NCBI RefSeq assembly: GCF_007559335.1
Contig: NZ_VMBG01000001.1
Location: 744,001 to 808,000, forward strand
Direction: 5' to 3'
Length of the DNA: 64,000 nucleotides
From: Rariglobus hedericola
GTDB lineage: Bacteria; Verrucomicrobiota; Verrucomicrobiia; Opitutales; Opitutaceae
Part shown: piece by piece, positions 42,761-63,680 of the stretch
How positions within the stretch are numbered: position 1 is the stretch's first letter
Layout: each line of letters begins with the position of its first letter
The notes under the pieces: model-generated
Told to the model about the DNA's origin: nothing
The model's database searches: none
The model's input: only the letters and a program-made list of their open reading frames with translations
Position numbers and translations under genes: made by a program

Positions 42761-42848
42761 GGAGAGGTGGCAGAGTGGTCTATCGCGACGGTCTTGAAAA
42801 CCGTTGGGGCGAAAGCTCCCGGGGGTTCGAATCCCTCCCTCTCCGCCA
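42761..42848 (+). tRNA. tRNA-Ser(TGA), CCA encoded
   Basis: GGAGAGG pairs with CCTCTCC. The anticodon stem ACGGT/ACCGT encloses CTTGAAA, giving anticodon TGA (42795-42797). A class II variable arm (TGGGGCGAAAGCTCCCG) and T-loop GGTTCGAATCC are present. CCA is encoded at 42846-42848. Its 3' end borders the recombinase pseudogene. Confidence 0.95.
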
Positions 42849-42870: not shown

Positions 42871-42918
42871 GTTAGGTTTTGGATAAAGCCAGGTTGCCCA
42901 GTTTACGTGGCAACCTAC

Positions 42919-43740
42919 ATGAATCAGTCAGCGTTTGTAATCACCCGGTTTCAAAACCGCAACGGGAGTGACCTCGTGGAGAGTAGACTGTCGGCTCCAC
43001 GGCATTCGCATCCGCAAGAACTTCAAGTCACGCGAGGAGGCTATCGCCGAGAAAGCCACTCAGGTATTCAAGGCGCTCCAAGCCGACGCCGGTCTCCAGT
43101 CTGCCACTACGTTTCCTTTCCGAGGAGCAGCTACGCGAATCGGAAACCGCGTTCAACCGCATTAAGAACCAAGCCCACCCGCTTACGTTCTATCTCGATT
43201 ACGCTCTGTCCAACTACCGCGAATCGCAGACGCGCAAAAAACCCCTCCGTGCCGTGGCCGAATACCTCGCGGCGAAAAAGCACGAGCAGCAGCAGGATCA
43301 ATTTCCAAGTCCCATCTGGTTTTCATGAGGCGCGACCTAAAGCGCTTTCTGCGTCATTTCCGCCGTATCACCGTCGCTGAACTCACGACGGAACAGCTGA
43401 TCAATTACTTCAACTTGGGGAAACCAATGTTGAAGACCTACAACAATCGGCGCGGCATCGTCTCCACCTTCCTCAAGTTCGCTTTCCAACGCGGATGGAT
43501 TACCGAGAACCCATGGCCAAGGTTCCCAGCCACCGGATTCGCCGGAAGCCATCTCAACGTTCTCCGCTGCGAAAGCAGAGGAACTCATGCGGCACGTCGA
43601 AAGCTTGGAGGGTGGCCGGTTCGTCCCTACTTCGCCTTGTGTCTGTTCGCCGGCATCCACCCTTGCCTGCGCACAGGGGAAATTCTCCGGCTCAAGCCCG
43701 AGCTGGTTAATCTGGAGGCCGGTATGGGTCTAACCCGCCA
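42919..43740 (+). pseudogene. Tyrosine recombinase pseudogene, N-terminal part with frameshifts
   Basis: Conserved recombinase segments appear in order but in changing frames: [17 protein letters not shown] (42919), SWRVDCRLHGIRIRKNFKSR (about 42970), LSEEQLRESETAFNRIKNQA and HPLTFYLDYALSNYRESQT (about 43120-43215), RRDLKRFLRHFRRITVAELT (43325) then MLKTYNNRRGIVSTFLKFAF, KVPSHRIRRK (about 43517), TFSAAKAEELMRHVESLEGG (about 43557), and FALCLFAGIHPCLRTGEILR with VNLEAG (about 43630-43722). At least four or five frameshifts separate them. The catalytic Arg region (GIHP..) has lost the normal Arg. Homology stops near 43725 and resumes at about 50.23 kb. The position beside tRNA-Ser fits a former integration site. 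Confidence 0.8.
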
Positions 43741-43785
43741 TACGCATAACTGCCTGTCATATCGGCCGCGGTTGCGGTTATTATC

Positions 43786-44670
43786 TTACTTGGTCTTGCT
43801 CGCGTGCTTCAAAAGCATCTTCGGAGCTACGCCGTGCACAGCTTTGAAGCGTCGCGAAAAATGATAGGGATCAGTAAATCCCACACGTTGCGCAGCCTCT
43901 TTCACCATCCCGCCACCTTTAACCAAAAACGCCGCGGCCAGATTCATTTTTCGCCGAAGTAAATACTGATACGGACTCGTATCGTGATAGCGGCGAAACA
44001 ACCGGCAGATACTCGATTCCTCCAAGCCCGCCGCCGTGGCAATTTCCTGCAACGTGAGCAATTTATCCGCCTGTGCATCGATCAGCGATTTGCAGCGATG
44101 GAAATTCTCCAAGGCCGGATCGCCTTGCGCAGCAGAGGTCGCCGAATCTTCGATCTTCAATAAAAGCACCTCCAGCAGATGCGCGCAGATTTTGTCTGCC
44201 AACGAGCCACTCCGCTGCCCCTCCTTCACGAGATCCTCAAGCACGCTGCGGATCTCCGCATGTCCCGCCAAGGTGATTCCAACGCCCGCCGCCACGCCCG
44301 CACGCTTAAGTCGCGGCCCGGCATTCGCTCCGGTGAAGCAGATAAAGTATTTCAACATCGGCTTCTGCGGATCGGTCGCCATCTCGCAACGGGTTGATGG
44401 CGCATAAGAAAAAAGACTGCCAGGCCGGAGCTCGTAACGGACCCCGTCGAGCGTCGCCTCCCCTGCTCCTTCGGCCACGTATTCCAACCCGTAATACGAG
44501 TAAAACGAACGATGGATTTCGTAATCCAAGTTACATCGTTCCCTGCCGCCCAATGTCACTGCGATGTCCTTGCCTGCTTTTTTGGCGCCAAGGTTGAGGA
44601 AAAAATAACGCGTTTCAGATACCTGTTTTGAGAGTAACGCGTCCGCTGAATGGGTGCCGATTTTATCCAT
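43786..44670 (-). CDS. AraC family transcriptional regulator (fucose cassette, first)
   Basis: 294 residues. The N-terminal half is an AraC-type sugar-sensing cupin (HRSFYSYYGLEYVAEGAGEATLDGVRYELRPGSLFSYAP). The C-terminal half is two helix-turn-helix motifs (LTLQEIATAAGLEESSICRLFRRYHDTSPYQYLLRRKMN, then MVKEAAQRVGFTDPYHFSRRFKAVHGVAPKMLLKH). It is divergent from the isomerase gene and probably activates it in response to a sugar, by analogy with AraC. A 21-bp-spaced direct repeat overlaps its start codon. The ligand is not identified. Confidence 0.85.
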   Translation of the reverse strand: MDKIGTHSADALLSKQVSETRYFFLNLGAKKAGKDIAVTLGGRERCNLDYEIHRSFYSYYGLEYVAEGAGEATLDGVRYELRPGSLFSYAPSTRCEMATDPQKPMLKYFICFTGANAGPRLKRAGVAAGVGITLAGHAEIRSVLEDLVKEGQRSGSLADKICAHLLEVLLLKIEDSATSAAQGDPALENFHRCKSLIDAQADKLLTLQEIATAAGLEESSICRLFRRYHDTSPYQYLLRRKMNLAAAFLVKGGGMVKEAAQRVGFTDPYHFSRRFKAVHGVAPKMLLKHASKTK

Positions 44671-44695
44671 CTTTGATCAAGGTTTATCCATTTTA
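44662..44695. promoter_or_regulatory. Direct repeats TTTATCCATYTT, AraC-type half-sites
   Basis: TTTATCCATCTT at 44662-44673 and TTTATCCATTTT at 44683-44694. The repeat period is 21 bp (two helical turns), as in known AraC-type tandem sites. They overlap the first codon of the AraC gene and lie about 90-120 bp before the isomerase start. A single mismatch separates the copies. Confidence 0.5.
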
Positions 44696-44784
44696 GGCGG
44701 GGTAAATCGAGAGTATATTCAACACCTCACCGGCCGCCCCTCGCCAAGTATTTCTAGGTTACCGCCCGCCCAACTCATTTCATC

Positions 44785-46413
44785 ATGCCCAAAACGCCCA
44801 AAAACACCGTCCTGCTCATTGCCAACGGCGACCTCCGCCAGAGCGCCAACGCCACTTGTTGGGCTGCACAGGCCGAGATGGAAAAAACGCTGACCTCCGC
44901 CCTCGCCGATTTGGGCTACAAACTGGTGCGCGCTCATCCCTACAAAAAGGACGTTAAGCACGGCTTCATCAGTTCGCAAAAGGAAGGCATGGAGGTGTTC
45001 GCCACGATAGATCCCGACGCCCCGCTGATCGTCGCTGAGGCCGTCTGGCAATACTCGCACCACATCCTCCACGGCCTCATCTCGCACCGCGGTCCCATTC
45101 TCACCGTAGCCAATTGGTCGGGCACTTGGCCGGGCCTTGTTGGAATGTTGAACTTGAATGGCTCGCTGACCAAAGCTGGCGTCAAATACTCGACGCTCTG
45201 GAGCGACAACTTCGACGACAGTTACTTCCTCGACGGTTTCTCCACGTGGTTAAAAACCGGCGTGACCAAACACAAGATCACGCACGTCAAGCCTCTTGCC
45301 AAAACCGCCGTGCCCGCAAAAGCCAAAGCGTTGGCCAAAAAAATTGCGGACGAGTTGCGCGTTAAAAAGTCCATCATGGGCGTTTTCGACGAGGGCTGCA
45401 TGGGTATGTATAACTCGATCATCCCCGACGAGCTCCTCTTCCAAACCGGTGTTTACAAAGAGCGTCTCTCACAGTCCGCGCTCTACTACAGCGCAACCCA
45501 GGTCAGCGACGAAGATGCGCAGGCCGTGTTCTCGTGGTATAAAAAGAAGGGGCTCAAATTCCACTTCGGAAAAGACGAAGCTACCGAGCTCACCGAGGCA
45601 CAGGTCATCTGGCAGTGTAAGACTTACATTGCGGCCGTTCGCATCGCCGACGACTTCGGCGCCGAGACCATCGGTATCCAATATCAACAGGGCCTCAAGG
45701 ACCTGCTTCCCGCCTCCGATCTCGTCGAAGGCACACTTAACAACAGCGATCGTCCACCGGTCAAAAACGCCGCCGGTAAAGTCGTTCGCGCTGGTGAACC
45801 GATTCCCCATTTCAACGAAGTCGACGAGTGCGCCGGCCTCGACGGTTTGTTCACCTACCGCGTTCACAAAGCGCTCGGTCAGCCCGTCGAAAACACGCTC
45901 CACGATCTGCGTTGGGGCGCGTTCGACGAGAGCGGCACGACCGACGAATACGTTTGGGTTTTCCTCATCTCGGGCAGCGCGCCTCCCGCGCATCACATCG
46001 GTGGCTGGGCCTGCTCGGATTCGATGCGTCAGCCGTCCATGTATTTCCGTCTCGGTGGCGGCACGCTTCGCGGCATCGCAAAGGTCGGCGAAATTATCTG
46101 GAGCCGCGTCTTCGTCGAAGGCGGCAAACTCAAGATGGACCTCGGCCGCGCCAAGGTCATCGCGTTGCCCCAAGCTGAGACCGACCGCCGCTGGAAACTG
46201 ACTACCGTTCAATGGCCGATCATGCACGCCGTGACGTATGGCGTTAACCGCGACCAGATGATGGCCCGTCACAAGAGCAACCACATCCAGGTCGTCTACG
46301 CCAAAAACGCTAAGGACGCCGATCTCGCGCTCTACACCAAGGCCCAACTCGCGGCCGAACTCGGCCTCGAAGTCAGTCTCTGCGGCACCAAGGCCGACGG
46401 ATCGGCATTCTAA
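44785..46413 (+). CDS. L-fucose isomerase-like protein (FucI/AraA superfamily)
   Basis: 542 residues. The N-terminal Rossmann-like domain ([29 protein letters not shown]) and the region [36 protein letters not shown] belong to the FucI/AraA superfamily of metal-dependent sugar isomerases. The C-terminal catalytic region has [39 protein letters not shown] and the end [12 protein letters not shown]. It is somewhat shorter than E. coli FucI (591). Neighbours (aldolase, fucosidase-like enzyme) point to L-fucose to L-fuculose. Another deoxy or pentose sugar (D-arabinose, L-galactose) is possible. Aldolase follows 15 bp downstream. Confidence 0.7.
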
Positions 46414-46428
46414 AAAACGCCTTACAAC

Positions 46429-47196
46429 ATGTCTGCCAACACGCCGCTCGACGCCCTCCTCAACCTCTCGCACCAACTCGGTCGGGAGGACCGTCGCCTC
46501 GCCATTCTTGGCGAGGGCAACATATCCGTTCGCCACGATGCCGAGACGTTTACCGTCAAGGCCTCCGGCTCGAATCTCGCCACGCTCGCCGCTGCCGGCA
46601 CCGCCACGTGCCGCTTTGATAAACTGATTCCACTACTCGCTTCCGCGGGCATGTCGGATGCCGCGATCGAAGAGTCGCTATTCGCCGCACGCATCTCGAC
46701 CGATTCAAAAAAACCGTCGGTCGAAACGATTTTCCACGCCTACTTGCTCACGCTGCCGGGCGTTAATTACGTCGGTCACACGCATCCGATTACAATTAAC
46801 CAAGTGCTGTGCTCGACTCACGCGCGTTCGTTCGCAACGCACCGCTTGTTCCCCGACGAGATCGTCTGCTGCGGAGTCGAAAGCGTCTTCGTTCCCTACA
46901 CCGATCCCGGTCTCAAGCTCTCGCAAGCGATCAAGACCGCCGTCGAGGAATACATCAACCGTCTCTCTCGTTCGCCTCGCATCATCCTCTTGGAAAACCA
47001 CGGATTGATCGCGCTCGGCGCCACGCCGGAAGCCGTTCTAGCCGGCACGTTGATGACCGCAAAATCCGCCGAGATCTATGTCGGAGCCGCCTCAATCGGG
47101 GGTGCCCCCAAGTTCCTCACCGACGCGCAGGTCGAGCGAATCGCAGGCCGCCCCGACGAACACTATCGGCAAAAAGCGCTGGGCCTTTCCACCTAA
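46429..47196 (+). CDS. Class II aldolase (L-fuculose-phosphate aldolase-like)
   Basis: 255 residues of the class II aldolase/adducin domain. GEGNISVRHDAETFTVKASG is the substrate loop, and GVNYVGHTHPITINQVL carries the two zinc His residues. IILLENHGLIALGATPEAVL carries the third zinc His region. These enzymes cleave fuculose-1-phosphate or rhamnulose-1-phosphate to dihydroxyacetone phosphate and lactaldehyde. The kinase that makes the phosphate is not encoded here. It is in one transcription unit with the isomerase and converges on the second AraC gene. Confidence 0.8.
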   Translation: MSANTPLDALLNLSHQLGREDRRLAILGEGNISVRHDAETFTVKASGSNLATLAAAGTATCRFDKLIPLLASAGMSDAAIEESLFAARISTDSKKPSVETIFHAYLLTLPGVNYVGHTHPITINQVLCSTHARSFATHRLFPDEIVCCGVESVFVPYTDPGLKLSQAIKTAVEEYINRLSRSPRIILLENHGLIALGATPEAVLAGTLMTAKSAEIYVGAASIGGAPKFLTDAQVERIAGRPDEHYRQKALGLST

Positions 47197-47272
47197 CGCT
47201 AGACGCTTCCAAACTAATAAACTCCGATCATTTAGCAAAAATCCGCAGACACGAAGCCGGTTAGTCGTTCGT

Positions 47273-48094
47273 TCATTCCATCTGCTGCAATCCCTGCCTC
47301 AACGCGCGGAATGCCGCGGGCGTGATCTCGCGAAACTTTCTAAAAGTTTTCGTGAAGTGGTAGCGATCGCAAAACCCAACGGCAGTGGCGATGTCGTCTA
47401 TTTTACGGTCGCCATGATGCAACAGCTCGCAGGCGGTGGAAATCCTCCGCGCGCGCAAACAAGCCATTGGCGTGTCGCTGGTTTCTTTCCGAAATAATCG
47501 TATCAAAGCCCGCCCGTGCATTCCCGCCACCACCGCCAAACTTTCGAGGGTATGGGGGGCGCCTAGATCTCGCTCCATGTGCTCCAACGCGCGCTGCACT
47601 CGAGGATCAATCTGGCGCTCACTCAGCGAACCGAGCGGCAGGTAATCGAGTGCTCCCAAGATCAACGCGAGCCATGCAATACCGCCCGCCTCAGATGTTC
47701 GAGCTGACACCGCGCACCCGTGCCACCGCCGCATTTCTTGAGACAGCGGCACCTCATAAATGCCCGGTGCAACCAACACTCCGGGAGCTAGTGTGAAATG
47801 CACATAACACTGCGTCGCTGGATTCCGTAACGCAGTTCCGAACGGTGTATCCGGTGCGATCAACCACGCCGATTCTGGGGACAGCATTATCCGTTTTCCT
47901 TTCCAACTTACCTCCGCTCCCGGTCCTTCCATCAAGTAAAGCCGCCAGTAAGGCGCGGCCAGATTCGGGAATGTCCACCGCTGCAGTTGAGCGGTAACGC
48001 ACGCCCGCACGCGCACGCCCAAATTCGCACACATGCCATGTGCCTGTTCGCTCACTACAATTTCCGTCGGCAAGGTGTTGGGTGACTTTTGCAC
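47273..48094 (-). CDS. AraC family transcriptional regulator (fucose cassette, second)
   Basis: 273 residues. The N-terminal half is a sensing domain different from the first regulator (LYLMEGPGAEVSWKGKRIMLSPESAWLIAPDTPFGTA). The C-terminal half has two HTH motifs (HTLESLAVVAGMHGRALIRLFRKETSDTPMACL, and KIDDIATAVGFCDRYHFTKTFRKFREITPAAFRALR). It is divergent from the GH151-like gene, its probable target. Having two AraC-type regulators in five genes suggests separate control of sugar release and sugar breakdown. Confidence 0.85.
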   Translation of the reverse strand: MQKSPNTLPTEIVVSEQAHGMCANLGVRVRACVTAQLQRWTFPNLAAPYWRLYLMEGPGAEVSWKGKRIMLSPESAWLIAPDTPFGTALRNPATQCYVHFTLAPGVLVAPGIYEVPLSQEMRRWHGCAVSARTSEAGGIAWLALILGALDYLPLGSLSERQIDPRVQRALEHMERDLGAPHTLESLAVVAGMHGRALIRLFRKETSDTPMACLRARRISTACELLHHGDRKIDDIATAVGFCDRYHFTKTFRKFREITPAAFRALRQGLQQME

Positions 48095-48209
48095 ACAATT
48101 TAGCGATTTCTGAACATGGAAGACGAACCGGAAATCGGTTATTATCTACATATTCTCCCCCTCGCTTTAAGAGCAAGCATTCCCGTTTTCCTTAACCGCT
48201 ATTCTCCCC

Positions 48210-50216
48210 ATGCACCGTCTTCGTTTCCGCCAGGTTCACCTCGACTTTCACACCAACGGCGACATTCCGGACATCGGAAAAAAGTTCTCCAAGCTCAGAT
48301 TTCAAGAGGCGCTCAAGGCCGGACACGTCGACTCGATCACGCTCTTCTCTAAATGCCATCACGGCTACAGTTACCATCCGACCAATGTCGGCACGCAGCA
48401 CCCGCATTTGAAATTCGATCTACTTGGCCAACAGATTGAAGCCTGCCGCGAAATCGGCGTGCGTTGCCCGATATATCTCAGCGCCGGCGTCGATGAATTG
48501 ACCGCCATGGCGCACCCGGAGTGGATCGTGAAAAACCGCGACGGCACCAGTTACGATCCGCTCCAAGTGGGTTGGTTTAAAAAACTCCGCTTCAACTCAG
48601 CCTACCTCGATTACCTCTGCGCTCAGATTGAAGAAGTTGTCCAACGCTGGCCGGACAACGACGGCATCTTCCTCGATATCATCTCTCCGTGGGATGACTT
48701 CTCCGAGCACACCTTGCGCGACATGCTGGCGCTCGGACTCTCGCCTTCTAAGCCGGAAGATGTCTGCACTTACACGCAGCGCACGCTCCTCAACTATTAC
48801 GAACGCACCAACGCCGCGGCCCGCAGCGTGCGTAAAGACACACCGGTTTTCCACAACGGCGGACACATCCCCGTCGGCGCGACGAAGTTCAACTTCTTCA
48901 ATTCTCACTTTGAATTGGAATCTCTTCCTACCGGCGGTTGGGGCTACGACCACTTCGCTTTCTCAGCCCGCTACGCCGCCACCCAACCGCGCGATTTCCT
49001 CGGCATGACGGGTAAGTTCCACACAACGTGGGGCGAGTTCGGCGGCTTCAAACGTCCCGCCGCGCTTCGCTATGAATGCGCCGGCATGCTGGCCTACGGA
49101 GCCAAGTGCTCGATCGGCGACCAGCTCCATCCTAACGGCGATATGAACGTCGATACCTACAAGCTCATCGGCGCTGCCTATGCCGAGGTCGAGGCTCGCG
49201 AACCCTGGATCGACAACGTGCGCCCCGTCGCTCGCATCGGTTTAGTCAGCACCGAATCCAACCAGAAGCTCGCCCGCGGCCACGAAACCGTCAGCCGGGC
49301 CGACGAGGGTGCAGCGCGCATGCTGTTGGAAACGCACCTGCCCTTTCTCGTGCTCGACGAGAACGCGAAGTGGGACCGCTTCGACCTCATCGTATTCCCC
49401 GACTCCTTCGTGCTTACGCCGGCGACGATAGCTAAAGCCAAAAAATTCCTCGCAGGTGGAGGCAAGCTTCTCGCCGCCGGCGGCGCGTTGCTCAACGCCG
49501 ACAAATCAGCCTTCGCCATCGACCCGGGGGCAAAGCTCCTCGGGCGTTCCGACAGCGATCCCGATTATCTCGTCGCCACAGCGCTCACGCCCGCCGTTTC
49601 CATTCGCTCGCCCGTCGTGATCCACGGCGCTGCTTACGAAGTGAAACCCACCGTTAAAACCCGAGTTCTAGTCGAGCGCCGCACGGCATACTTTAACCGC
49701 ACATGGGAGCACTTCTGCTCACATCAACACGCTCCCGATTCACCGTCCAAGGCGGCGCCTGCAGCGACTTTGACCGCCAACATCGCGTGGTTTGCCCACG
49801 ATATTTTCACGCGCTACCGCAACTATGGACAACCGATCTACCGCGACTTTGTCCTCGCCGCGATCGATCACCTGCTCGACGGCGAACGCCCCGCCGTCAC
49901 CAGCCTACCAACTGACGGCCGCTTCAGTCTCCTCGATCAACCGTCCGAAAAACGCCTCATCGCTCATCTCATCTACGCGCCTAAATCCCTGCGCGGCGCC
50001 AACCAATCCGAAGGCGTGAATAAGTCACTCGAAGTCATCGAAGACCTCATTCCGCTGCGGAACGTTCAAGTCGCAGTCCAAGTCCCGCGCCAGATCCACT
50101 CCGCCCGTCTCGTGCCTGAAAACGTGGTCATTCCCTTCACTCAAAAAGGCGGCATTGTGTCACTTGTCGTTCCCGAGTTCACCGCCCACGCCATGATCGA
50201 GCTGAGCTATGCATAA
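48210..50216 (+). CDS. GH151-like glycoside hydrolase, putative alpha-L-fucosidase
   Basis: 668 residues with no signal peptide. Residues 1-350 form a TIM barrel of the GHL6 type (VHLDFHTNGDIPDIGKKF, then VDSITLFSKCHHGYSYHPTN, RCPIYLSAGVDELTAMAHPEW, DNDGIFLDIISPWDDF and HTTWGEFGGFKRPAALRYE). Residues 350-450 look like a beta-galactosidase trimerisation domain (PVARIGLVSTESN...DLIVFPDSFVL). From the family, GH151 contains alpha-L-fucosidases with this layout. Asp in DGIFLDI and Glu in TWGEFGG are candidate catalytic residues, which is my inference. It is presumably cytoplasmic, so oligosaccharide import is needed. Confidence 0.65.
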   Translation: MHRLRFRQVHLDFHTNGDIPDIGKKFSKLRFQEALKAGHVDSITLFSKCHHGYSYHPTNVGTQHPHLKFDLLGQQIEACREIGVRCPIYLSAGVDELTAMAHPEWIVKNRDGTSYDPLQVGWFKKLRFNSAYLDYLCAQIEEVVQRWPDNDGIFLDIISPWDDFSEHTLRDMLALGLSPSKPEDVCTYTQRTLLNYYERTNAAARSVRKDTPVFHNGGHIPVGATKFNFFNSHFELESLPTGGWGYDHFAFSARYAATQPRDFLGMTGKFHTTWGEFGGFKRPAALRYECAGMLAYGAKCSIGDQLHPNGDMNVDTYKLIGAAYAEVEAREPWIDNVRPVARIGLVSTESNQKLARGHETVSRADEGAARMLLETHLPFLVLDENAKWDRFDLIVFPDSFVLTPATIAKAKKFLAGGGKLLAAGGALLNADKSAFAIDPGAKLLGRSDSDPDYLVATALTPAVSIRSPVVIHGAAYEVKPTVKTRVLVERRTAYFNRTWEHFCSHQHAPDSPSKAAPAATLTANIAWFAHDIFTRYRNYGQPIYRDFVLAAIDHLLDGERPAVTSLPTDGRFSLLDQPSEKRLIAHLIYAPKSLRGANQSEGVNKSLEVIEDLIPLRNVQVAVQVPRQIHSARLVPENVVIPFTQKGGIVSLVVPEFTAHAMIELSYA

Positions 50217-50225
50217 CGATCTATT

Positions 50226-50405
50226 ATCCTATTTGACGACTCGCACGACATCATGCGGCACACGTTCATTTCCATGTTCGTCGCCAAGTTCCGCTCCATC
50301 GGAGAGGCCGCAATTCAGGAGGGCAATTCCGAGGCCGTCATTCGCAAGCATTATCTCGGCATGAAGAGTCAGACCGAGGCCGAGGTTTTTAACGCGATCA
50401 TGCGG
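50226..50405 (+). pseudogene. Tyrosine recombinase pseudogene, C-terminal part
   Basis: In frame from about 50226: LFDDSHDIMRHTFISMFVAKF, then RSIGEAAIQEGNSEAVIRKH and YLGMKSQTEAEVFNAIMRKRP. RHTF carries the second catalytic Arg pattern, GNSEAVIRKHYL contains the catalytic His region and the Tyr. This is the end of the same recombinase family as the fragment at 42.9-43.7 kb. It has no start of its own (preceded by the end of the GH151-like gene). Confidence 0.8.
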
Positions 50406-50503
50406 AAAAGACCGCCGGAGAGCAGGAGCCGAAAGCCCTTTCTGTCGCCGCCTGACAACTTCGCCCGACGCGGTGCCAACGGGCGCGCCACGTCGGGGCA
50501 GTG

Positions 50504-50525
50504 CGACACACATCGTGTCGTTTTT
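50504..50525 (+). terminator. Hairpin terminator after the integrase remnant
   Basis: CGACAC-ACATC-GTGTCG followed by TTTTT. It lies about 100 bases after the recombinase homology ends. The rest of 50405-50756 shows no gene I can support. Confidence 0.65.
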
Positions 50526-50756
50526 AGCAATCGGCCGCGGGCAGAGTGCCTGCCACTCGCTGCGTTTACACCGGTGCATGGGTATGGAAACGCAACTACC
50601 TGCATCGACTCTCCCCACGCTCACCGACATCACCGTCTGCGCATCTCGGGCCCGCTGGAGGAGAAGACCGACATCGGTAAAGCAGGAGATATATCGATTA
50701 CCACCGGCTACCAGCTAGCTGAATTTGTCTATCTCATGAAGGGACTCGACGAGTCA

Positions 50757-53700
50757 TTAGGGACGGGTAACGCGCAGGCGCATGAAACGCTTCGTCACCG
50801 ACGAGAGAGATTGGGTGTCGTCCACTTTGACGGTGCCGGGGGCCGAACCGCTGTGCGTGTAGAGCGATGTCCAAGTTCCGTTAAGATCGCTGGTCGCTTC
50901 GACAACGTAGGTCACATCCGCGGCCGTTCCCGTAAAAGTATAGCTGAGGTAGTTGCTACCTTCGACCGTCTGCACTTGGAGAATCAGCCCGGCGGAGGCC
51001 GCAGTGGCGGGGAGGTTGGGATTTAGGCCGAGTGCATACTTCAGGAGATTGGCCATGCCGTCGTTGGCCGCGCTGGCGTTGTCGGCGCGGTTGCCGGTCG
51101 CGTCGGTCGTGCCGAAGTGGGTCATCCGCCACGTGTCGATGCCGGAAGCCGCCACGATGGACGCCGTGGTCTGCGCGTAGGTGGTGACGGCGCCGTCGTT
51201 GGCCGTGAGCCGCAGCGTGTAGGCGCCGGCCTGGTTAAAATTCGCCGTGGTGGTGGCGGCCGCCGCGTTGCCGAAGGCCGCGTTGCCGAGACCCGCGGAC
51301 TTGCTCCAGCCGAGGACCAAGGAAGAGCCGGCCGGATTGCCGTCGTCGATCACCGATCCGGAGAGAGGGAGAAGTTCGCCGGTGTTGCCCGCAATCGCGG
51401 TGCCGGCGGAGACGACCGGCCCCATGTTGGCGGGCGTGGCAGCGGCAAGGTCCTGGATCTCCGTGAGGTCCAGCGCACGGTTGTAGATGCGGGCCTCGTC
51501 GATCGTGCCGAAGAAATTCCAGGCGTCGTTCGAGCCGATCTTGAGTGGCGCGGTGTTGTTTCGCGGGACGCTCGTCGGGGTAATGGTGCTGAATTTATCG
51601 GCGCTGCCGTTGACATAGATCCGGAGGTTGTTGGTGGCCTGCGAGCCGTCGAAAACGACGCAGAGGTGATACCATTGGCCCGCGGCCACAGTGGTGGCGG
51701 CCACGAGGGTTGTGCCCCCGGAGATGGTGACGGAGATCGTCGCGTTGCCGGTGCCGCCGCGCAGTTCGACGCGATAGGACTCTTTGTTGAAGGGGCCGAT
51801 ACGCTTGGTGATGATGCCTGCGTAGGCGCTGCCGCCGGAGGGGATGCTGTCGGCTTTGAACCAGAGCGAGATCGTCATCTTGCCGAGGCCGTCGAGCGGA
51901 TTGGGGTTGGTGGACGAATCGGCCACCTCGACGCGCTGAAATCCGCCGCTGAAAGTGAGCCCGCCGCCGATGCGGCCCGCGGCGTTCCATGCGGGCGATT
52001 CGAAGAAGGTGCCGTTGGTGGTGGATGCCACGCCCGAGCTGTCCACGGCGGTGGTGCCGCTCGTCTCGTCGAGCGCGAGGCGCAATTTGAGGGCGCCGTC
52101 GGCCGGACCGTTGACGGGGATGGAGAGCACGCGCACCGGGATGTCGCGGCTGGACTGGTCCACGCCGTCGTTGGCCGTCAGGCGGAGGACGTAGTCGCCG
52201 GGGGAGCCGAACGTGGCGCCGGTCGAGAGGGAGGTTGCGCTCGTGAAGGTGACGGTGCCCTGACCGGAGACCTTGGTCCATTGCAGCGTGAGCGAGCCGG
52301 CGCGGGCCGGCAGCGGAGTGACTGTAGTGCTGATAAGGATACCGGAGCCCGTGTAGATGCACGCCGGGCTCGCGGTGGGAGAGATGACCGCGATGTCGGG
52401 GGCGTTGGTGGTTTCAAAAACGATATAGGGCCGTGCCGAACCGTAGGCGTTGGCGGAGCCGACGGTGACGGTCTGCTGTGTCGCGGTGAAGAAACGCAGG
52501 CTCATTTTTTTCAACGAGTCGTTGGCGAGGGTTTCGCGAACGTAGGAAGTCACGTCGAACTGCAGGAGCGTGCCGGGGGTGTTGACGCCGGAGTCGGTGA
52601 GCGTGGGGACGCCGGCGTTGTAGCTCGTGGGACGCGTGTTGTAGGTCATGCTCGTCGTAGAAACGAAGGCCAGGGCGGGATCGTAGGTCCAGGAGCCGAA
52701 GGCAACGGTGAGGAGGTCGAAGTTGTCCGCGTCCACGACGGTGAGCGCGTAGGGACCGTTGGAGGGGGCGCCGGTGCCGGTGAGGCCGGCAAGCGAGACT
52801 TGGGTGCCGTTGGTGAAGCCGTGGCCGGCACAGGCGACGCGGGTCTTGCCGGAGCCGTTGTTGCTGACGCCGGTGAAGGGTCGCGAGATGCCGCGGTCGA
52901 TCCAGCCGTCCTGCGCGTCGGCGATGAGGTTGGCCTGGACGTTGGCGATGACGCCGGCGGCCGTGCCGCTGGTGACGTAGAGATGGAGCGTGGCGCGGAC
53001 GAAGCTGTTGTTGAGCGCGAGGCCGGAAAGGTCATAGCGCTGGAAGGTCTCGTGCTGGTTGGCGGCGATGTTGGAAATATAGCCGACCTCGTCGGTGCCG
53101 TAGGAGCTGGTGGACCTGGCCTTGTCGGTGTAGGTGGTGGCCTCGGGATAGAGGACGGTCGCGCTGGAGGAGTTGACCGTCAGTGTGAAAGCTTGGTTGG
53201 CCGTCTGATTGAGCTGATCGGTCACTTGGGCGGTGAACGTGAACGTGCCCGTGACGGTGGGCGCGCCGGAGAGGACGCCGGCGCTGGAGAACGTGAGGCC
53301 GGCGGGCAGCGCGCCGGAAGCGAGCGACCAGGCGTATTGGGGCACGCCGCCCTGGGCGTCGAGGGAGACGGAACCGGGCGAATTCCAGTTGAAGGCCGGA
53401 AGCGTGGTGGTGGAGATCGCGACGGCGGTGGGCGCAGCGTCGAGGTTGACGGACTGGGTGGCGCCGAGGCTGGCGTTGTAGAAGGTGCCGCCGCCGGTGG
53501 TTTCGAGGCGAACGGCCCGCACCATGTAAACGTGACTGCCGGTCGTGACGATAGTGTCGGTGTAGGTGGTGCCCGTGATCGGAGTCGCGGTCAGGCGGGT
53601 GAACGGAGCGGAGGCGTGGGCGGCGCGATAAACGTGGTAACCGATGACGCCGGAATCGGGCGAGGCAGTCCAAGTGAGGACGGGGTTGCCGGCGGTCTTG

Positions 53701-56507
53701 ACCACGCTCAGGCCCGTGGGCGGCTCGAACATGAAGAGGCGCAGCGCGGGGTCGCCCATATGGTTCATGTAGAGCGAGCCGTGGTAGTCGCCGTTGTTTT
53801 GGGCGTTGAACTTGTAGGTGTAGGGGCCGCCGTCGGAGCCGGTGGTCCAGCCGCGGTTGTTGATGCTCTGTTTCATCATGTCGCCCGCTTCGAGGCCCAT
53901 GCCCATGCGATGGTAGATGTAGCGCAGGCCCCAGATATTCCACGTGTAGCTCAGCGTGAAACTATCCTCGGAAAGCGACTTCAGCATGATGTTCGCGCTG
54001 TTGGTTATCCGGGTGGCCTCATACCAGTAGCCCCAGTGGCTCTGCATGCCGGTCCAGAAAACGGCGCGACCACCGACACCGCTCATCGGTCCGCTGTTGC
54101 CTTTGAAGTAAAACAGGTAGGGGCCGTTTTGGATGGTGTAGAGCTGGTCGGCGTCCTCTCCGGTCCTCGTGCGCGGAAGTGCGGCGTTGGTGATGAACTC
54201 GACATTGTTCATGCCGACGACGCCGGGCATGGATTGAAGCTGGGCGTCGCGCTCGTTGGCATAGAGCAGGCGATCAACAACGCGACGGCCGGGCCGGAAA
54301 TCGGGGCTGGCCACCTTGTAGCGGTGGAGCTTCCAGAAGTAAGTGCGCAGGGCCTCGGTCTCGGTCTGGATACCGTGGGAGAGGTCAATGCGGCTGAAGC
54401 CGAGCTCGACGCGTCCGTTGGGGCCCACCTCGGAGATCTTGCGTTGGTCGAACTGGCCGTCGCCCGGGATGTTGTTGATGGCGCTCGAGCCGTCGTTGGA
54501 GCCGGTGTCGGTCCAACCCATTCCAATCGCCCCGTCGGTGTCGGCGTAGAAGGCGTCGGTGCCGTAGGGGGCGACACTGCCGTGGCCGTCGGCGCCTGCT
54601 CCATCGCTCAGGCCGCTGCGGGCGACCGGCACTTTGCCGATCAGGGCGAGATTTTTCAGTTCGCCCGGGTAGGCGTTGTTGACCGCCAGGACGGCGTCAC
54701 GAATGAGCAGGTGGTAATTGTTGAGTGCGGAACCCGCGGTCGCAGTGGCGCCGCTTCCACCGGATGCGGGCGCGAGCGTGAGCGCCTCGTTCGCGCCGAA
54801 GGTGGCGGGCAGGACCACCGAGACGCCGGTGACGGATCCGGCGGGCGCGATGAGCGAACCGGTGGCGGTGGCGCCGCTGGTCGCCCCGGTGATGGTCACG
54901 CGGTCGTTGTCGCGATAGCCGGAACCGCCGGCGACAACGTTCACATTCCGGCCCACGCCGGAGTTGTCCACGGTGTTGACCGACACGTTCAGGCCGCCCG
55001 AGTTGGTCTGGAGACCGGTCAGGTAGAGGTAGCCGCTGTCGGTGTAGCCCGAGCCGCCCGAGGTGATGGTGATCGAGGTGATGACGCCGTTGGTGACGTT
55101 CAGCACGCCTTGAGCGGCGGTGGTTCCGTAGTTGAATCCCACTACGTTTCCGTTTACGTAACCCGAGCCACCGCCGAGGACCTGCACGGATTGAAGCGGC
55201 CCGCCTACCGTGGCCGTGAAGGGTCCGACGCCCGAGCCGGCGGAGGCGCCCGACACGGCGATGGCCTCGCCCTCGATGAAGCCGACCTCGCTGGAGGTGA
55301 CCTCCATGGAAAGGATCACACCGTCGGAATTGACGCCCAGGACCGCCTGGGCGGTCTTGCCGCTGGTGCCGCCCGTCAAGGTGACGGTGTCACCTTCGAT
55401 GTAACCGGAGCCCGTGGTGTAGATGCCGGCCTGGGTCAGCTTGCCCGTTCCATCAAGGTAGTCCGCGATGATCGTGCCGACACCGGAGCCGGTCGTATTG
55501 CCCGTCATGATGAGGCGCTCTTTTTCGATGAAGCCGGCATCGCTGGAATTGATGGTGAGCCAATAGACCGCGCCCGCCGGATAGTTGAAGATCGTGACCT
55601 GCGCGGTCTTTCCGCTGACGGCGCCGGTGAGCGTCACGTCCTGGCCTTGGGTGTAACCGGAACCGCCGGTGACTGCTTCGGGAGACCGGAGGGTGAATTG
55701 GGCGGTATTGACGCGACCGATCAGCGTGGCGCCGGTTCCGGTCGAGGTGCCTCCCGAGACGGTGAGCGCCTCATTGGCGGAGAAGCCCGTGCCGCCGCCG
55801 GCATTCGGAATCGAGACGGAGGAGACGACTCCGTTGGTGGCGGTGATCTTGCCGCGCGCGGTTTTCCCGGAGGCGTTGGTGAGCGTGATGTAGTCGCTGT
55901 TCACGTATCCGGAGCCGCCGGCGTTGACCTTGGTCGTGAGGATGTTGCCGTTGCCGAGCGCGGAGTAGTTGGGCGCACGCGGCACGAGGATCTCGTGCAC
56001 GGTCCAGCCGTCAGCGAAGAGGTCGGCTTTGTATTGCGCGAACTCGGCAGGCAGCGTCGTCAGGACGTCGGAGGCCACGACCACGGCCATGCGGCCTTTG
56101 GGCTGCGTGCCGTCAACTTGGATACCGCACAGGATGTAGCCCGAGGGATAAATCGAGTTGGTCGTCGTGCCGGCGGTATTGACGAAACGATACTCGTAAA
56201 GCGTGCCGACGGAGACGGTGTTGTCCGTCCACGTGCCCTCGCCCGCGAGCGAGACGCCGGTCGCGACCGCGGCGCCCCAGGAGAGCGCGTCGGGCGATTT
56301 GCGGTAGATGCTAAAGGTGCCGGGCGCGTAGGTTTTTATCCGTATCTGCGCGGGACTCGCCTGAACGGCGGCCTCAAGGGGGATGGTCTGGACAGTGCCA
56401 TCCGAGGCGGTCTGCAAGTTGGCCGGCGTGTAGGCGCGAAGCGTCGAGACCAAAATCGAGAGGCAAAGCAAAGCCGCAACGGCGCGCAGGTAGGGGTGTC
56501 TGCTCAT
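50757..56507 (-). CDS. Very large secreted protein: interrupted C25-like domain, Fn3, Ig, DNRLRE, LamG and shared tail
   Basis: 1916 residues with signal peptide (VAALLCLSILVSTLRA). Residues 138-178 (RMAVVVASDVLTTLPAEFAQYKADLFADGW) and 597-930 (LIRDAVLAVNNAYPGELKNLALIGKVPVAR, DAFYADTDG, MNHMGDPALRLF) resemble a gingipain-type C25 peptidase. Between them are about 400 residues of Gly-rich repeats (GGSGY..VTLTG..SGKTAQ, about six copies). The 597-930 part has no Cys at all, so catalysis by a thiol is impossible if the homology holds. Next: Fn3 (about 935-1030), putative Ig (SGALPAGLTFSSAGVLSGAP), a DNRLRE-type segment (HETFQRYDLSGLALNNSFVRATLHLYV), PKD-like, LamG (about 1520-1700), and a tail ending VTKRFMRLRVTRP. 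A surface adhesin or binding role is inferred. Confidence 0.75.
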   Translation of the reverse strand: MSRHPYLRAVAALLCLSILVSTLRAYTPANLQTASDGTVQTIPLEAAVQASPAQIRIKTYAPGTFSIYRKSPDALSWGAAVATGVSLAGEGTWTDNTVSVGTLYEYRFVNTAGTTTNSIYPSGYILCGIQVDGTQPKGRMAVVVASDVLTTLPAEFAQYKADLFADGWTVHEILVPRAPNYSALGNGNILTTKVNAGGSGYVNSDYITLTNASGKTARGKITATNGVVSSVSIPNAGGGTGFSANEALTVSGGTSTGTGATLIGRVNTAQFTLRSPEAVTGGSGYTQGQDVTLTGAVSGKTAQVTIFNYPAGAVYWLTINSSDAGFIEKERLIMTGNTTGSGVGTIIADYLDGTGKLTQAGIYTTGSGYIEGDTVTLTGGTSGKTAQAVLGVNSDGVILSMEVTSSEVGFIEGEAIAVSGASAGSGVGPFTATVGGPLQSVQVLGGGSGYVNGNVVGFNYGTTAAQGVLNVTNGVITSITITSGGSGYTDSGYLYLTGLQTNSGGLNVSVNTVDNSGVGRNVNVVAGGSGYRDNDRVTITGATSGATATGSLIAPAGSVTGVSVVLPATFGANEALTLAPASGGSGATATAGSALNNYHLLIRDAVLAVNNAYPGELKNLALIGKVPVARSGLSDGAGADGHGSVAPYGTDAFYADTDGAIGMGWTDTGSNDGSSAINNIPGDGQFDQRKISEVGPNGRVELGFSRIDLSHGIQTETEALRTYFWKLHRYKVASPDFRPGRRVVDRLLYANERDAQLQSMPGVVGMNNVEFITNAALPRTRTGEDADQLYTIQNGPYLFYFKGNSGPMSGVGGRAVFWTGMQSHWGYWYEATRITNSANIMLKSLSEDSFTLSYTWNIWGLRYIYHRMGMGLEAGDMMKQSINNRGWTTGSDGGPYTYKFNAQNNGDYHGSLYMNHMGDPALRLFMFEPPTGLSVVKTAGNPVLTWTASPDSGVIGYHVYRAAHASAPFTRLTATPITGTTYTDTIVTTGSHVYMVRAVRLETTGGGTFYNASLGATQSVNLDAAPTAVAISTTTLPAFNWNSPGSVSLDAQGGVPQYAWSLASGALPAGLTFSSAGVLSGAPTVTGTFTFTAQVTDQLNQTANQAFTLTVNSSSATVLYPEATTYTDKARSTSSYGTDEVGYISNIAANQHETFQRYDLSGLALNNSFVRATLHLYVTSGTAAGVIANVQANLIADAQDGWIDRGISRPFTGVSNNGSGKTRVACAGHGFTNGTQVSLAGLTGTGAPSNGPYALTVVDADNFDLLTVAFGSWTYDPALAFVSTTSMTYNTRPTSYNAGVPTLTDSGVNTPGTLLQFDVTSYVRETLANDSLKKMSLRFFTATQQTVTVGSANAYGSARPYIVFETTNAPDIAVISPTASPACIYTGSGILISTTVTPLPARAGSLTLQWTKVSGQGTVTFTSATSLSTGATFGSPGDYVLRLTANDGVDQSSRDIPVRVLSIPVNGPADGALKLRLALDETSGTTAVDSSGVASTTNGTFFESPAWNAAGRIGGGLTFSGGFQRVEVADSSTNPNPLDGLGKMTISLWFKADSIPSGGSAYAGIITKRIGPFNKESYRVELRGGTGNATISVTISGGTTLVAATTVAAGQWYHLCVVFDGSQATNNLRIYVNGSADKFSTITPTSVPRNNTAPLKIGSNDAWNFFGTIDEARIYNRALDLTEIQDLAAATPANMGPVVSAGTAIAGNTGELLPLSGSVIDDGNPAGSSLVLGWSKSAGLGNAAFGNAAAATTTANFNQAGAYTLRLTANDGAVTTYAQTTASIVAASGIDTWRMTHFGTTDATGNRADNASAANDGMANLLKYALGLNPNLPATAASAGLILQVQTVEGSNYLSYTFTGTAADVTYVVEATSDLNGTWTSLYTHSGSAPGTVKVDDTQSLSSVTKRFMRLRVTRP

Positions 56508-56551
56508 ATTGAGCAGCCACCTTTCCGGTATTCTTTACGAAAACTCAAGCC

Positions 56552-56573
56552 GTTAATCAAACATGTGATTAAC
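56552..56573. promoter_or_regulatory. Inverted repeat, candidate operator of the large secreted protein
   Basis: GTTAATCA-N6-TGATTAAC, arms perfect over 8 bp, 45-66 bp before the ATG. On the leftward strand TTGATT inside it, a 17-nt spacer and TAAAGA could be -35 and -10, so a repressor here would block the promoter. The core AATCAAAC-N2-GTGATT recurs at 63549. Confidence 0.55.
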
Positions 56574-56671
56574 TGGCAAATATCTTTCGTTTTTGGAACT
56601 CGCGACAGCCGTGCTGCCCGCGTTTCTACTCCTCATGCCCGTGCTGTCCGATGGCTTTGGTCAGCCTGAAT

Positions 56672-57910
56672 TTAAGGCCGGCTTCCTCTAGGCAGGCGCA
56701 ACGCAAACGCGACGGCCGACGACACGGTGGCGAGCGCCATCACGCCCTTCCAGCCCGCAGCCTGCAGCAACACCCCGCCAAGCCCGGCCCCGAGCGACAT
56801 GCCGGCGAACATCGCCGCGATCAGCACCGCGTTGAGCCGGCTGCGCGCCTCCGCATCGAGTCCGTAGATGATCGTCTGGTGGCCGATGAGCGTTGCCTGC
56901 ACGCCGAGGTCAAATCCCACCACCGCCAGCGCCATCGCAGCCAGTTGAGCGCGCGGCTCCAGCCAGCAGGCGCCCAGCATTCCGGCAAAGGAGGCGACCG
57001 CCAATGCCGAGCAAATCCGCGTCACCCAGGCCGGACCGCGTCTGTCCGCCAGCCGGCCGGCCAGCGGCGCGGCCAACGCGCCCACCGCTCCCGCCAGTCC
57101 GAAAGCACCCGCCGCCGCGCTGCCCAACCGGAAAGGCTCCGCGCTCAGCATCAGCGCGAGCGAGGACCAGAAGGCGCTGAAGCCCACCGCGAGCAGCCCC
57201 TGCGCCCACGCCGCCCGGCGCAGTTCCGGATGACGCCGCCACAGCCCGCCCAGCGAACGCAACAGCTCGCCGTAGGGCAGCCGCGTAGTGACGCGCAGCG
57301 AAGGCAGGAGACGCCACACCGGCACCATCGCCGCCACCATGCCGACCGCCGACAGACCGAGCATCGCACGCCAGCCGAAATATTGCGCCACCAGTCCGCT
57401 GACCGCGCGCGAGAGCAGGATGCCCAGCAGCAGCCCCGTCATCACCGAACCCACCACGCGGCCGCGACTGCGCTCCGGCGCCAACGTCGCGGCGGAGGAA
57501 ACCACGTCCTGCGCCAACGTCGCCGCCAGACCCAGGACAAAGCTCGCGGCCAACAACACCGTAATGCCCTGCGCAAACGCCGCCACCGCGAGCGTGCCGG
57601 CCAGCGTCGCCGTCTTCGCGAGAATAATGCGCCTCCGATCAAGCCGGTCGCCCAGCGGGGCAAGCAGGAGAATACCGGCCGCATAGCCGAGTTGCGTCAG
57701 CATCGGCACCGCCCCCAGCGCCGCCGGCGAAACCCGCAGGTCCGCCGCCATCACCGCGAGCATCGGCTGCGTGTAGTAGAGCGCCGCCACGCCGAGCCCG
57801 GCAACCGCCGCCAGCAGGAAAGTCAGCCCGCCCGTCAGTTCCCCGCCTTCACTGCCCGAAGCGGAGGCGGCGAGGGCCGTATTGTCATGCGTTGATCGAA
57901 TAGCATTCAT
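56672..57910 (-). CDS. MFS transporter (drug/metabolite exporter type)
   Basis: 412 residues with 12 predicted helices. The loop 2-3 signature LAPLGDRLDRRRIILAKTATLAG is that of the 12-helix DHA-type MFS exporters. Other helices include GLGVAALYYTQPMLAVMAADLRVS, LAATLAQDVVSSAATLAPERSRGRVVGSVMTGLLLGILLSR. It is divergent from a LysR gene across 74 bp, the standard arrangement for a regulator and its controlled exporter. Substrate unknown. Confidence 0.85.
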   Translation of the reverse strand: MNAIRSTHDNTALAASASGSEGGELTGGLTFLLAAVAGLGVAALYYTQPMLAVMAADLRVSPAALGAVPMLTQLGYAAGILLLAPLGDRLDRRRIILAKTATLAGTLAVAAFAQGITVLLAASFVLGLAATLAQDVVSSAATLAPERSRGRVVGSVMTGLLLGILLSRAVSGLVAQYFGWRAMLGLSAVGMVAAMVPVWRLLPSLRVTTRLPYGELLRSLGGLWRRHPELRRAAWAQGLLAVGFSAFWSSLALMLSAEPFRLGSAAAGAFGLAGAVGALAAPLAGRLADRRGPAWVTRICSALAVASFAGMLGACWLEPRAQLAAMALAVVGFDLGVQATLIGHQTIIYGLDAEARSRLNAVLIAAMFAGMSLGAGLGGVLLQAAGWKGVMALATVSSAVAFALRLPRGSRP

Positions 57911-57922
57911 GTCGCCATCAGC

Positions 57923-57949
57923 CTACCCGATCTCATTTTCCAAGGGTAG
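57923..57949. promoter_or_regulatory. Inverted repeat between MFS and LysR genes
   Basis: CTACCC-N15-GGGTAG in the shared 74-bp promoter region. The layout (dyad in the divergent gap) is what LysR-type regulators bind, although the half-sites are not a T-N11-A consensus. Confidence 0.4.
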
Positions 57950-57984
57950 TGGCCGCGCTCAAATAACGGTCATACGCTAAACGC

Positions 57985-59004
57985 ATGGCCAAATCACGCC
58001 CCTCTCGTCCCGCGACCTCCCCTGCCCGCTCCGCTTCGCCTGCGGGCGGAGCCGACCGGCTCGACCTGCTGCAAACCTTCGTGCGCATCGTGGAGACGGG
58101 CGGGCTCTCCTCCGCGGCGGCCTCGCTCGGCACCACTCAGCCGACCGTCAGTCGGCGGCTTCAGGAATTGGAGCGGCAGCTCGGCTGTCGGCTCGTGCAT
58201 CGCTCCACCCACGGCATCCGCCTGGGCGACGAAGGGGAACGTTGCTACCGGCGGGCACTCGAGCTGCTGGCCGGCTGGTCCGAATTTGAAGCGGAGCTGC
58301 GCGGGGCCGGAGCCGAGCCCGCCGGCCTGCTGCGCGTGGTGGTGCCCCACGCCTTCGGCCAGCGCCTGCTGATCGGCCCGTTGGCGGATTTTCTACGCAG
58401 CCACCCGAAGGTCACGGTTGAATGGCTGCTGCGCGACAACGCGCCGGACTTCGTGGCCGAAGGCGTGGATTGCGCGATCCATGTCGGCGAGGTGCACGAC
58501 GCCGCCGTCGTCGCCGTGCGCCTGGCCGAGGTGCCTCGCATCGTGGTGGCCGCGCCGTCCGTGACGGAGGGCCGCGCCCTTCCGTCCAGGCCGCGCGAAC
58601 TCGCCGGCCTGCCCTGGCTCGCGATCAAGACCTACTACCACCGCGAGATCACGCTGCGCCGGCGCAGGGGTGACGAAACCTGCCGCGTCGCCCTGCGTCC
58701 GCGCCTCGTCACCGACAATCTCTACGCATTGCGCGAGGCAGCCCTCCAAGGCCTCGGCGTTGCCGTGGTCTCGCGCTGGCTGGTGGCCGAGGACCTCGCC
58801 TCCGGCGCGCTCCGGCAACTCACGCCCGAATGGGAGGCCGCACCGCTACCGGTGCATATCGCCTACCCCTACGCCAAAATGTATCCGCCCGCACTGCGCG
58901 CCTTCGTCGACGCCATGCGCCGCCTCCTGCCCGCCGCACTCGGCGAGACAGTGCTTCCGCCCCGAGCGAGTAAGCAGTCCGGAAACGGCGTGAACCGAGC
59001 CTAA
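57985..59004 (+). CDS. LysR family transcriptional regulator
   Basis: 339 residues. A 30-residue Ser/Pro/Ala-rich N-terminal extension precedes the HTH (LDLLQTFVRIVETGGLSSAAASLGTTQPTVSRRLQELERQLG). The effector domain follows (AGLLRVVVPHAFGQRLL through LRQLTPEWEAAPLPVHIAYP, the LysR substrate-binding type). Probably controls the divergent MFS exporter. Its stop overlaps the end of the convergent helical-repeat gene by four bases. Confidence 0.85.
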   Translation: MAKSRPSRPATSPARSASPAGGADRLDLLQTFVRIVETGGLSSAAASLGTTQPTVSRRLQELERQLGCRLVHRSTHGIRLGDEGERCYRRALELLAGWSEFEAELRGAGAEPAGLLRVVVPHAFGQRLLIGPLADFLRSHPKVTVEWLLRDNAPDFVAEGVDCAIHVGEVHDAAVVAVRLAEVPRIVVAAPSVTEGRALPSRPRELAGLPWLAIKTYYHREITLRRRRGDETCRVALRPRLVTDNLYALREAALQGLGVAVVSRWLVAEDLASGALRQLTPEWEAAPLPVHIAYPYAKMYPPALRAFVDAMRRLLPAALGETVLPPRASKQSGNGVNRA

Positions 59005-60449: not shown

Positions 60450-60464
60450 CGGATTCAGTCTGGT

Positions 60465-63400: not shown

Positions 63401-63479
63401 GCGAGCGCACTTCCCTCGTCGGGGAAGCGGGGGCAAACGACCGGGAGGCGGGAGCCAGGGAGGAGTTCAGATGCTTCAT
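60465..63479 (-). CDS. Glycoside hydrolase family 2 protein
   Basis: About 1004 residues from ATG 63479 ([19 protein letters not shown]). The N-terminal sugar-binding domain has [35 protein letters not shown]. An Ig-like domain precedes the TIM barrel ([21 protein letters not shown], then [31 protein letters not shown]). The acid/base Glu is in [13 protein letters not shown] and the nucleophile Glu in [13 protein letters not shown]. About 350 extra C-terminal residues follow. The family includes beta-galactosidases, beta-glucuronidases and beta-mannosidases; the substrate is not determined. No clear signal peptide. The upstream in-frame codons include another ATG (MECSLSISP) with no better ribosome site. 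First gene of a two-gene unit. Confidence 0.88.
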   Translation of the reverse strand: [1004 protein letters not shown]

Positions 63480-63548
63480 TGGGGAGATAGAAAGGGAGCA
63501 TTCCATGCGGCCGATCATTGAGGGGCCGAGTTCAGGGAAATTCTCGTG

Positions 63549-63564
63549 AATCAAACGAGTGATT
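63549..63564. promoter_or_regulatory. AATCAAAC-type inverted repeat before the GH2 gene
   Basis: AATCA-N6-TGATT (core AATCAAAC-N2-GTGATT), 70 bp upstream of the GH2 ATG and about 117 bp before the rightward gene at 63681. It has the same spacing and core as the dyad at 56552-56573. Confidence 0.45.
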
Positions 63565-63680
63565 TTAGGCGTTGACAGCAAGTCTGTAAAATAACTTTTT
63601 TGGCGGTCCTCTTCACCCCCTGCCCGCGTGTCCTCCTCGGGCTGCATGCTGGCATAAGCCTCCCCCTTCCGTCCTCACCG

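Follow-up and report, generated by a model that had tools for sequence, protein, structure and literature searches.

How did a set of fucose-type catabolic genes come to lie inside the gene of a tyrosine recombinase? The question is raised by a 64,000-nucleotide stretch of Rariglobus hedericola (genome G000, 4.15 Mb, family Opitutaceae; contig C1, positions 744001-808000), hereafter called the window, where a block of five genes separates two pieces of a recombinase gene directly behind a tRNA-Ser gene. A first-pass annotation, made from the letters of the window alone, had described the block as a metabolic cassette inserted into an integrase. The comparisons presented here make it rather probable that the locus marks the left end of a tRNA-Ser island of 71.8 kb, whose own integrase was destroyed by a pre-joined block arriving through illegitimate recombination, and that the island was thereby fixed. 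The genes of the block are referred to as ISO (isomerase), ALD (class II aldolase), GH151 (alpha-L-fucosidase homologue), and AraC1 and AraC2 (two AraC-type regulators).

Results

Two pieces of an integrase gene flank the block

An intact 411-aa paralogue of the recombinase, located directly behind tRNA-Ser(GCT) in the same genome (L003:8768-10003), was used as the reference for tblastn comparison. Its residues 15-286 matched window positions 42923-43726 and its residues 338-397 matched 50232-50411, without overlap. The alignment to a full-length integrase that the first-pass annotation had proposed thus bore out its view that the two pieces belong to one tyrosine recombinase beside tRNA-Ser. 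At the DNA level, the left break falls at 43725/43726, after codon 286, and the right break at 50232-50240, varying with whether TTTGA is counted as integrase. The loss of core residues from the gene was confirmed, but the figure of about 60 was not, the measured loss being 154-162 nt, or 51-54 codons.

The N-terminal part is a decayed pseudogene with six frame-breaking indels, and the C-terminal part carries one. Compared with the paralogue, the N-terminal part has an identity of 0.67-0.79 as far as about position 43519 and of 0.94-1.0 beyond it up to the break, and the C-terminal part one of 0.94; over its last 53 residues the paralogue is 89% identical. Because the stretch of high identity spans the break, the pattern fits a single integrase copy that would have been partly converted by the paralogue and interrupted later. 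The integrase copies of this genome are mosaic, with a 5' part about 70% identical and a 3' part 94-100% identical (43519-43725 and 50240-50456), as after gene conversion between islands.

Could the pieces instead derive from the two integrases of tandem islands, the N piece from one and the C piece from the other, with deletions leaving the block between them? Tandem islands do occur in a relative (G150), where a bare attachment core is followed by a second integrase. Such an origin is nonetheless unlikely here, given that the pieces do not overlap and fall short of each other by so few codons, that identity to the paralogue is 94-100% on either side of the break, that no attachment core lies between the pieces, and that matching deletions would be needed.

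The recombinase matched PHROG integrase families (4e-23) and, weakly, XerC; no Pfam match was found at 0.001. It adjoins a tRNA gene and was not an IntI in any search made, no attC model having been run. In the alignment of integrase motifs, five of the eight reference rows end at an upstream stop, the readable rows being L003, L020 and L026.

The integrase gene marks one end of a 71.8-kb island

The tRNA-Ser region was compared in 11 relatives of the genus, over stretches of 3-20 kb each. Members of the genus share the gene order nusA - DUF2851 - NYN - tRNA-Ser: DUF2851 was detected in 12/13 genomes, R. hedericola included, and tRNA-Ser(TGA) lies beside the NYN gene in 9/11 relatives, in the same orientation in 8. 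A recombinase of the same family lies behind this tRNA-Ser in three of the 11 (G150, G202 and G201, the last cut by a contig end), and the five block genes were found at the site in none of them, as the locus comparison proposed by the first-pass annotation would have it for a local insertion. Empty sites are seen in G074 and G097, where the next host gene lies within about 200 bp of tRNA-Ser; in G117 this gene is present and the tRNA is inverted. The next gene in all three encodes a conserved 338-aa protein, presumably resembling GDP-mannose dehydratase, and its 96% counterpart in R. hedericola is found at C1:858777, 72 kb further on. Directly before this counterpart, outside the window, lies GGTTCGAATCCCTCCCTCTTCGCCA, a copy of the tRNA 3' end over 25 bp with 1 mismatch (C1:858620-858644), which is bare, belonging to no tRNA gene. 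Since this bare copy precedes the gene that follows tRNA-Ser in relatives, the limits of the island were placed at C1:786849-858619. No 14-mer repeats of the tRNA were detected within the window, the far end of the island lying beyond it.

By Pfam, the cargo of the island comprises GH2, heparinase/alginate-lyase-like, rhamnosidase-like, sugar transport, LacI, LysR, aldolase and epimerase proteins (19 proteins scanned, 3 of them without a Pfam match). With the integrase as the island's end gene, the block is an addition to an island; of the earlier picture of a cassette in an integrase beside a tRNA, the integrase and the tRNA stood and the lone cassette did not.

Six further island intervals, each consisting of tRNA-Ser, an open integrase gene and a bare core, were found in R. 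hedericola, G150 and G013, spanning 96.8, 29.3, 38.1, 40.0, 40.3 and 75.2 kb with the pairing of ends inferred; searching the same three genomes with the reversed pattern as a control returned 0 matches. Across 200 Opitutaceae genomes, the sample for all family-wide counts, the recombinase family is present in 91, and it lies beside tRNA-Ser, -Glu or -Leu in 22/30 loci scanned. The left-end motif GTTGCCCAGTTTACGTGGCAAC is similar across all 7 islands compared. A right-end motif, AATAATTAACCATCAACTAAGTCCG, stands just inside the bare core in five of the seven (L300, L307, L301, L311 and L293), is degenerate in the G150 Ser-TGA island and is absent from the window's island, where a scan of 126 kb gave no match within 7 mismatches. 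Together with the islands of G150 and G013, the interval C1:948711-1045608 of R. hedericola forms a group of islands at tRNA-Ser genes, 29-97 kb long, whose recombinases belong to a divergent family and whose ends measure 25 bp.

Illegitimate recombination as the probable route of entry

The five genes occupy about 6.5 kb between the integrase pieces, and beyond the outermost genes only about 60 bp on the left and 16-23 bp on the right remain up to the block ends. The gene types named by the first-pass annotation, two AraC regulators, an isomerase, a class II aldolase and a GH151-like protein, were recovered, and so was its observation that the cassette lacks a mobility gene: neither the gene list nor a domain scan of the block contained a transposase or other mobility gene. 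Six junction tests compared the block ends with each other, with the attachment (att) core and with the missing integrase stretch; none revealed a significant inverted repeat, an att-like core or clear microhomology. By eye, the outer 60 bp and 16-23 bp showed no likeness to the DNA behind the same genes in relatives.

A transposon or insertion sequence as carrier was rejected, there being no transposase and no terminal inverted repeats (the inverted similarity of the block ends was reached by 30% of shuffles). It is very improbable that the integrase itself placed the block through a secondary attachment site in its own gene. The start of the left junction, GGGTCTAACCC, slightly resembles the core GGGTTCGAATCCC, but 63% of shuffles reach this likeness, which is no more than chance; the right junction has nothing comparable, and the loss of 154-162 nt is unlike site-specific recombination. 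As neither a transposase nor an inverted repeat, att-like core or clear microhomology was detected at the junctions, the simple reading left is illegitimate (non-homologous) recombination that removed a short stretch of the gene; the two modules of the block, described below, would have been joined before they entered the integrase gene. The integrase being split and frameshifted, the island is inferred to be incapable of excision by its own enzyme, and with the polysaccharide-degradation genes it carries it would have stayed in the chromosome.

Several observations weigh against this account. The mosaic identity of the integrase allows a more complex history, and with seven small indels besides the insertion the gene may have died before the block arrived. 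The right attachment core has 1 mismatch and is not accompanied by the right-end motif of the five other islands. A weak direct similarity, reached by 2.35% of shuffles, came out of one of the six junction tests and was not taken as evidence. Finally, the intact paralogue could serve excision in trans, and to call the island fixed is an interpretation on our part.

The coordinates of the features are collected in Table 1. A 1850-aa open frame at 51117-56669 (+), antisense to the gene of the 1916-aa surface protein, is probably an artefact of high GC content.

Table 1. Features of the tRNA-Ser locus, in window coordinates
Feature	Position	Strand	Evidence
tRNA-Ser(TGA)	42761..42848	+	ARAGORN
Left attachment core of the island, last 25 bp of tRNA-Ser(TGA)	42824-42848	+	Distant copy of the core
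Left-end motif of the island, between tRNA and integrase	42893..42914	+	Flanks of 7 islands compared
Integrase pseudogene, N-terminal part, residues ~1-286 of 411	42919..43725	+	Comparison with paralogue
Inserted block, 6,506-6,514 bp, in place of 154-162 nt of integrase	43726..50239		
AraC1, AraC-type regulator, divergent from ISO	43786..44670	-	Pairing repeated in many relatives
ISO, L-fucose/L-arabinose isomerase fold protein (predicted)	44785..46413	+	Homologues in 139/200 family genomes
ALD, class II (fuculose/rhamnulose-phosphate-type) aldolase	46429..47196	+	
AraC2, AraC-type regulator, divergent from the GH151 gene	47273..48094	-	
GH151 alpha-L-fucosidase homologue (Pfam GHL6)	48210..50216	+	6TVK, phmmer E 3e-163, residues 4-667
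Integrase pseudogene, C-terminal part, HDIMRHTF and IRKHYL motifs	50240..50456	+	Comparison with paralogue
Remaining island within the window: 1916-aa LamG/PKD/CBM96 protein, LysR, GH2	50457..64000		

Fucose use is the likeliest role of the block

The product of the glycoside hydrolase (GH) gene is closely homologous to 6TVK, a GH151 fucosidase, over 664/668 residues. According to PMC10154630, the catalytic residues of GH151 are D154 and E235; the catalytic D and E are kept in the homologue, with the FLD and ELES residues in place, the shift between the two numberings having been counted by hand. ALD matches class II aldolases. The isomerase scored below the Pfam gathering thresholds of the FucI domains (22.4 and 18.8 bits vs 29.3 and 28), and its sequence matched no solved structure even at E 10. 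Its predicted model gave 41 PDB matches at E <= 0.001, those inspected being fucose or arabinose isomerases; with a mean pLDDT of 66.6 and a TM score of about 0.45, the model suggests a FucI/AraA fold with modest confidence.

Judged from these similarities, fucose use would be the likeliest role of the block, and it may still be served: the fucosidase would free fucose, the isomerase and aldolase would act on it, and the two AraC proteins would regulate the process. No kinase is encoded among the five genes, and the rest of the genome was not searched for a fuculokinase; the kinase would be supplied from elsewhere. An FGGY kinase gene lies near ISO-ALD in G134.

The block consists of two modules that occur separately in the family

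What had been called a five-gene cassette is two modules, AraC-isomerase(-aldolase) and AraC-GH151, each found elsewhere in Opitutaceae, and side by side only in R. hedericola among the loci searched. The isomerase was detected in 139 genomes, including all 9 members of the genus in the set, and GH151 relatives at E <= 1e-150 in 42, of which 41 also have ISO. For 39 genomes besides R. hedericola both places were listed, and ISO and GH151 were within 50 kb on one contig in none (both genes on one contig in 5, on different contigs of broken assemblies in 34). Likewise, no integrase or GH151 match was found in any of 59 other ISO regions, and no ISO, ALD or integrase in any of 72 GH151 regions, the two sets of regions overlapping in organisms. 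The search for the cassette elsewhere, also suggested by the first-pass annotation, therefore recovered the joined block in no other genome (0/39 genomes; 0/72 loci).

AraC1-ISO lies between the ribonucleotide reductase and NamZ genes in G074, G164, G178 and G190; G117 and G200 have it next to NamZ. ISO adjoins ALD also in G097, G134 and G150, as well as at the ALD loci found in G201 and G203, and the divergent pair AraC2-GH151 recurs in G134, G097, G074 and G200 with different neighbours each time. The G200 isomerase (L158:9951-11466) was matched in two pieces with a gap, perhaps reflecting a broken gene or an assembly fault.

Modules with both ISO and ALD were within 1 kb of a tRNA gene in 4 of 16 cases (Ser, Met, Pro, Pro), those without ALD in 1 of 44; if one tRNA per 84 kb is assumed, chance would give about 0.4 of 16, and the pattern was noticed after the fact. 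AraC-ISO(-ALD) modules near tRNA genes are those at L070, L071, L077 and L257. That AraC-isomerase-aldolase modules wander without mobility genes of their own, prefer tRNA genes and island ends, and use up the island integrases in which they land, is quite improbable.

The block genes are ordinary in the family and may have moved or been acquired

The five genes are not foreign to Opitutaceae; they are ordinary there, and their place alone is unusual. The first-pass annotation had spoken of gene gain. The placement in the integrase holds, but gain itself was not demonstrated, and the genes may simply have moved, because the isomerase is so widespread and its commonest site in the genus survives in R. 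hedericola without it. At this site 4.3 kb separate the reductase gene from NamZ, AraC1-ISO is absent and an AlkZ-like gene is present; the isomerase is single-copy in the genome. The old AraC-ISO site (L146:9825-11721) holds one BON-domain gene and the AlkZ-like gene, and in relatives two BON-domain genes flank AraC-ISO.

With AraC1-ISO between the reductase and NamZ genes in four of the relatives named above and on the NamZ side in two, a movement within the genome has a little less than an even chance in our estimate: AraC1-ISO would have left this locus, and AraC2-GH151 another, before or while landing in the integrase. The protein identity of the five block genes to relatives is comparable to that of core genes, as such a movement would have it, and the core tree joins R. 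hedericola with G097 (1.000), in agreement with the trees of ALD (0.96) and AraC2 (0.89). The ISO tree, however, places R. hedericola with G117/G074 (0.89) and not with G097, while those of AraC1 and GH151 give no resolved placement. In G134, too, the reductase and NamZ genes stand together without AraC1-ISO and the isomerase lies elsewhere, so that loss at this locus is not rare. The neighbours of the AraC-ISO-ALD unit of G097, tried as a marker of an older place, gave a best match of 34% in R. hedericola.

Composition also speaks against movement within the genome. In third-position GC content (GC3) all five block genes fall short of their relatives (mean of up to four) by 0.08-0.17, whereas six core genes differ by +0.05 to -0.06 (Mann-Whitney p = 0.004). 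This joint shift, together with a block GC of 0.573 vs 0.616-0.646 for the same modules in relatives, favours acquisition of the ready-made block from a relative of lower GC, replacing a lost native copy. Such an acquisition is possible but somewhat doubtful, as the absolute GC3 of the block genes (0.62-0.75) overlaps that of R. hedericola core genes (0.67-0.80) and no donor with the joined block was found among the genomes and loci searched.

Discussion

The destruction of an island's integrase by a pre-joined block, as favoured above, illustrates one way in which a mobile island may become fixed, its end integrase being partly replaced by catabolic genes that are common in the family. Opitutaceae tRNA-Ser islands with clear ends are now defined, and with them the gain and loss of polysaccharide-use genes in these genomes can be studied. 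A literature search that was limited and says little turned up no description of the arrangement. As a case of catabolic genes in a dead island integrase, the locus belongs to a known kind of system and not to a new one; the particular event is new as far as that search shows.

The locus is like tRNA-associated genomic islands in having an integrase right behind a tRNA gene, a repeat of the tRNA 3' end at the opposite boundary, adaptive cargo and an empty site in relatives. Unlike in those islands, the integrase of R. hedericola is decayed and interrupted by a catabolic block, and no excision would be expected from it. Two integrase gene pieces flanking other DNA are also a feature of the split integrases of SSV-type archaeal elements. 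Those elements carry the attachment site within the integrase gene, which is split by the act of integration, whereas in R. hedericola no attachment core is present at the split and sequence was lost. The fucosidase homologue of the block resembles the GH151 alpha-L-fucosidase ALfuk2 (PDB 6TVK) almost throughout its length, with the nucleophile D and the acid/base E kept, and differs from it in that its gene stands beside an AraC regulator and is joined with an isomerase-aldolase module.

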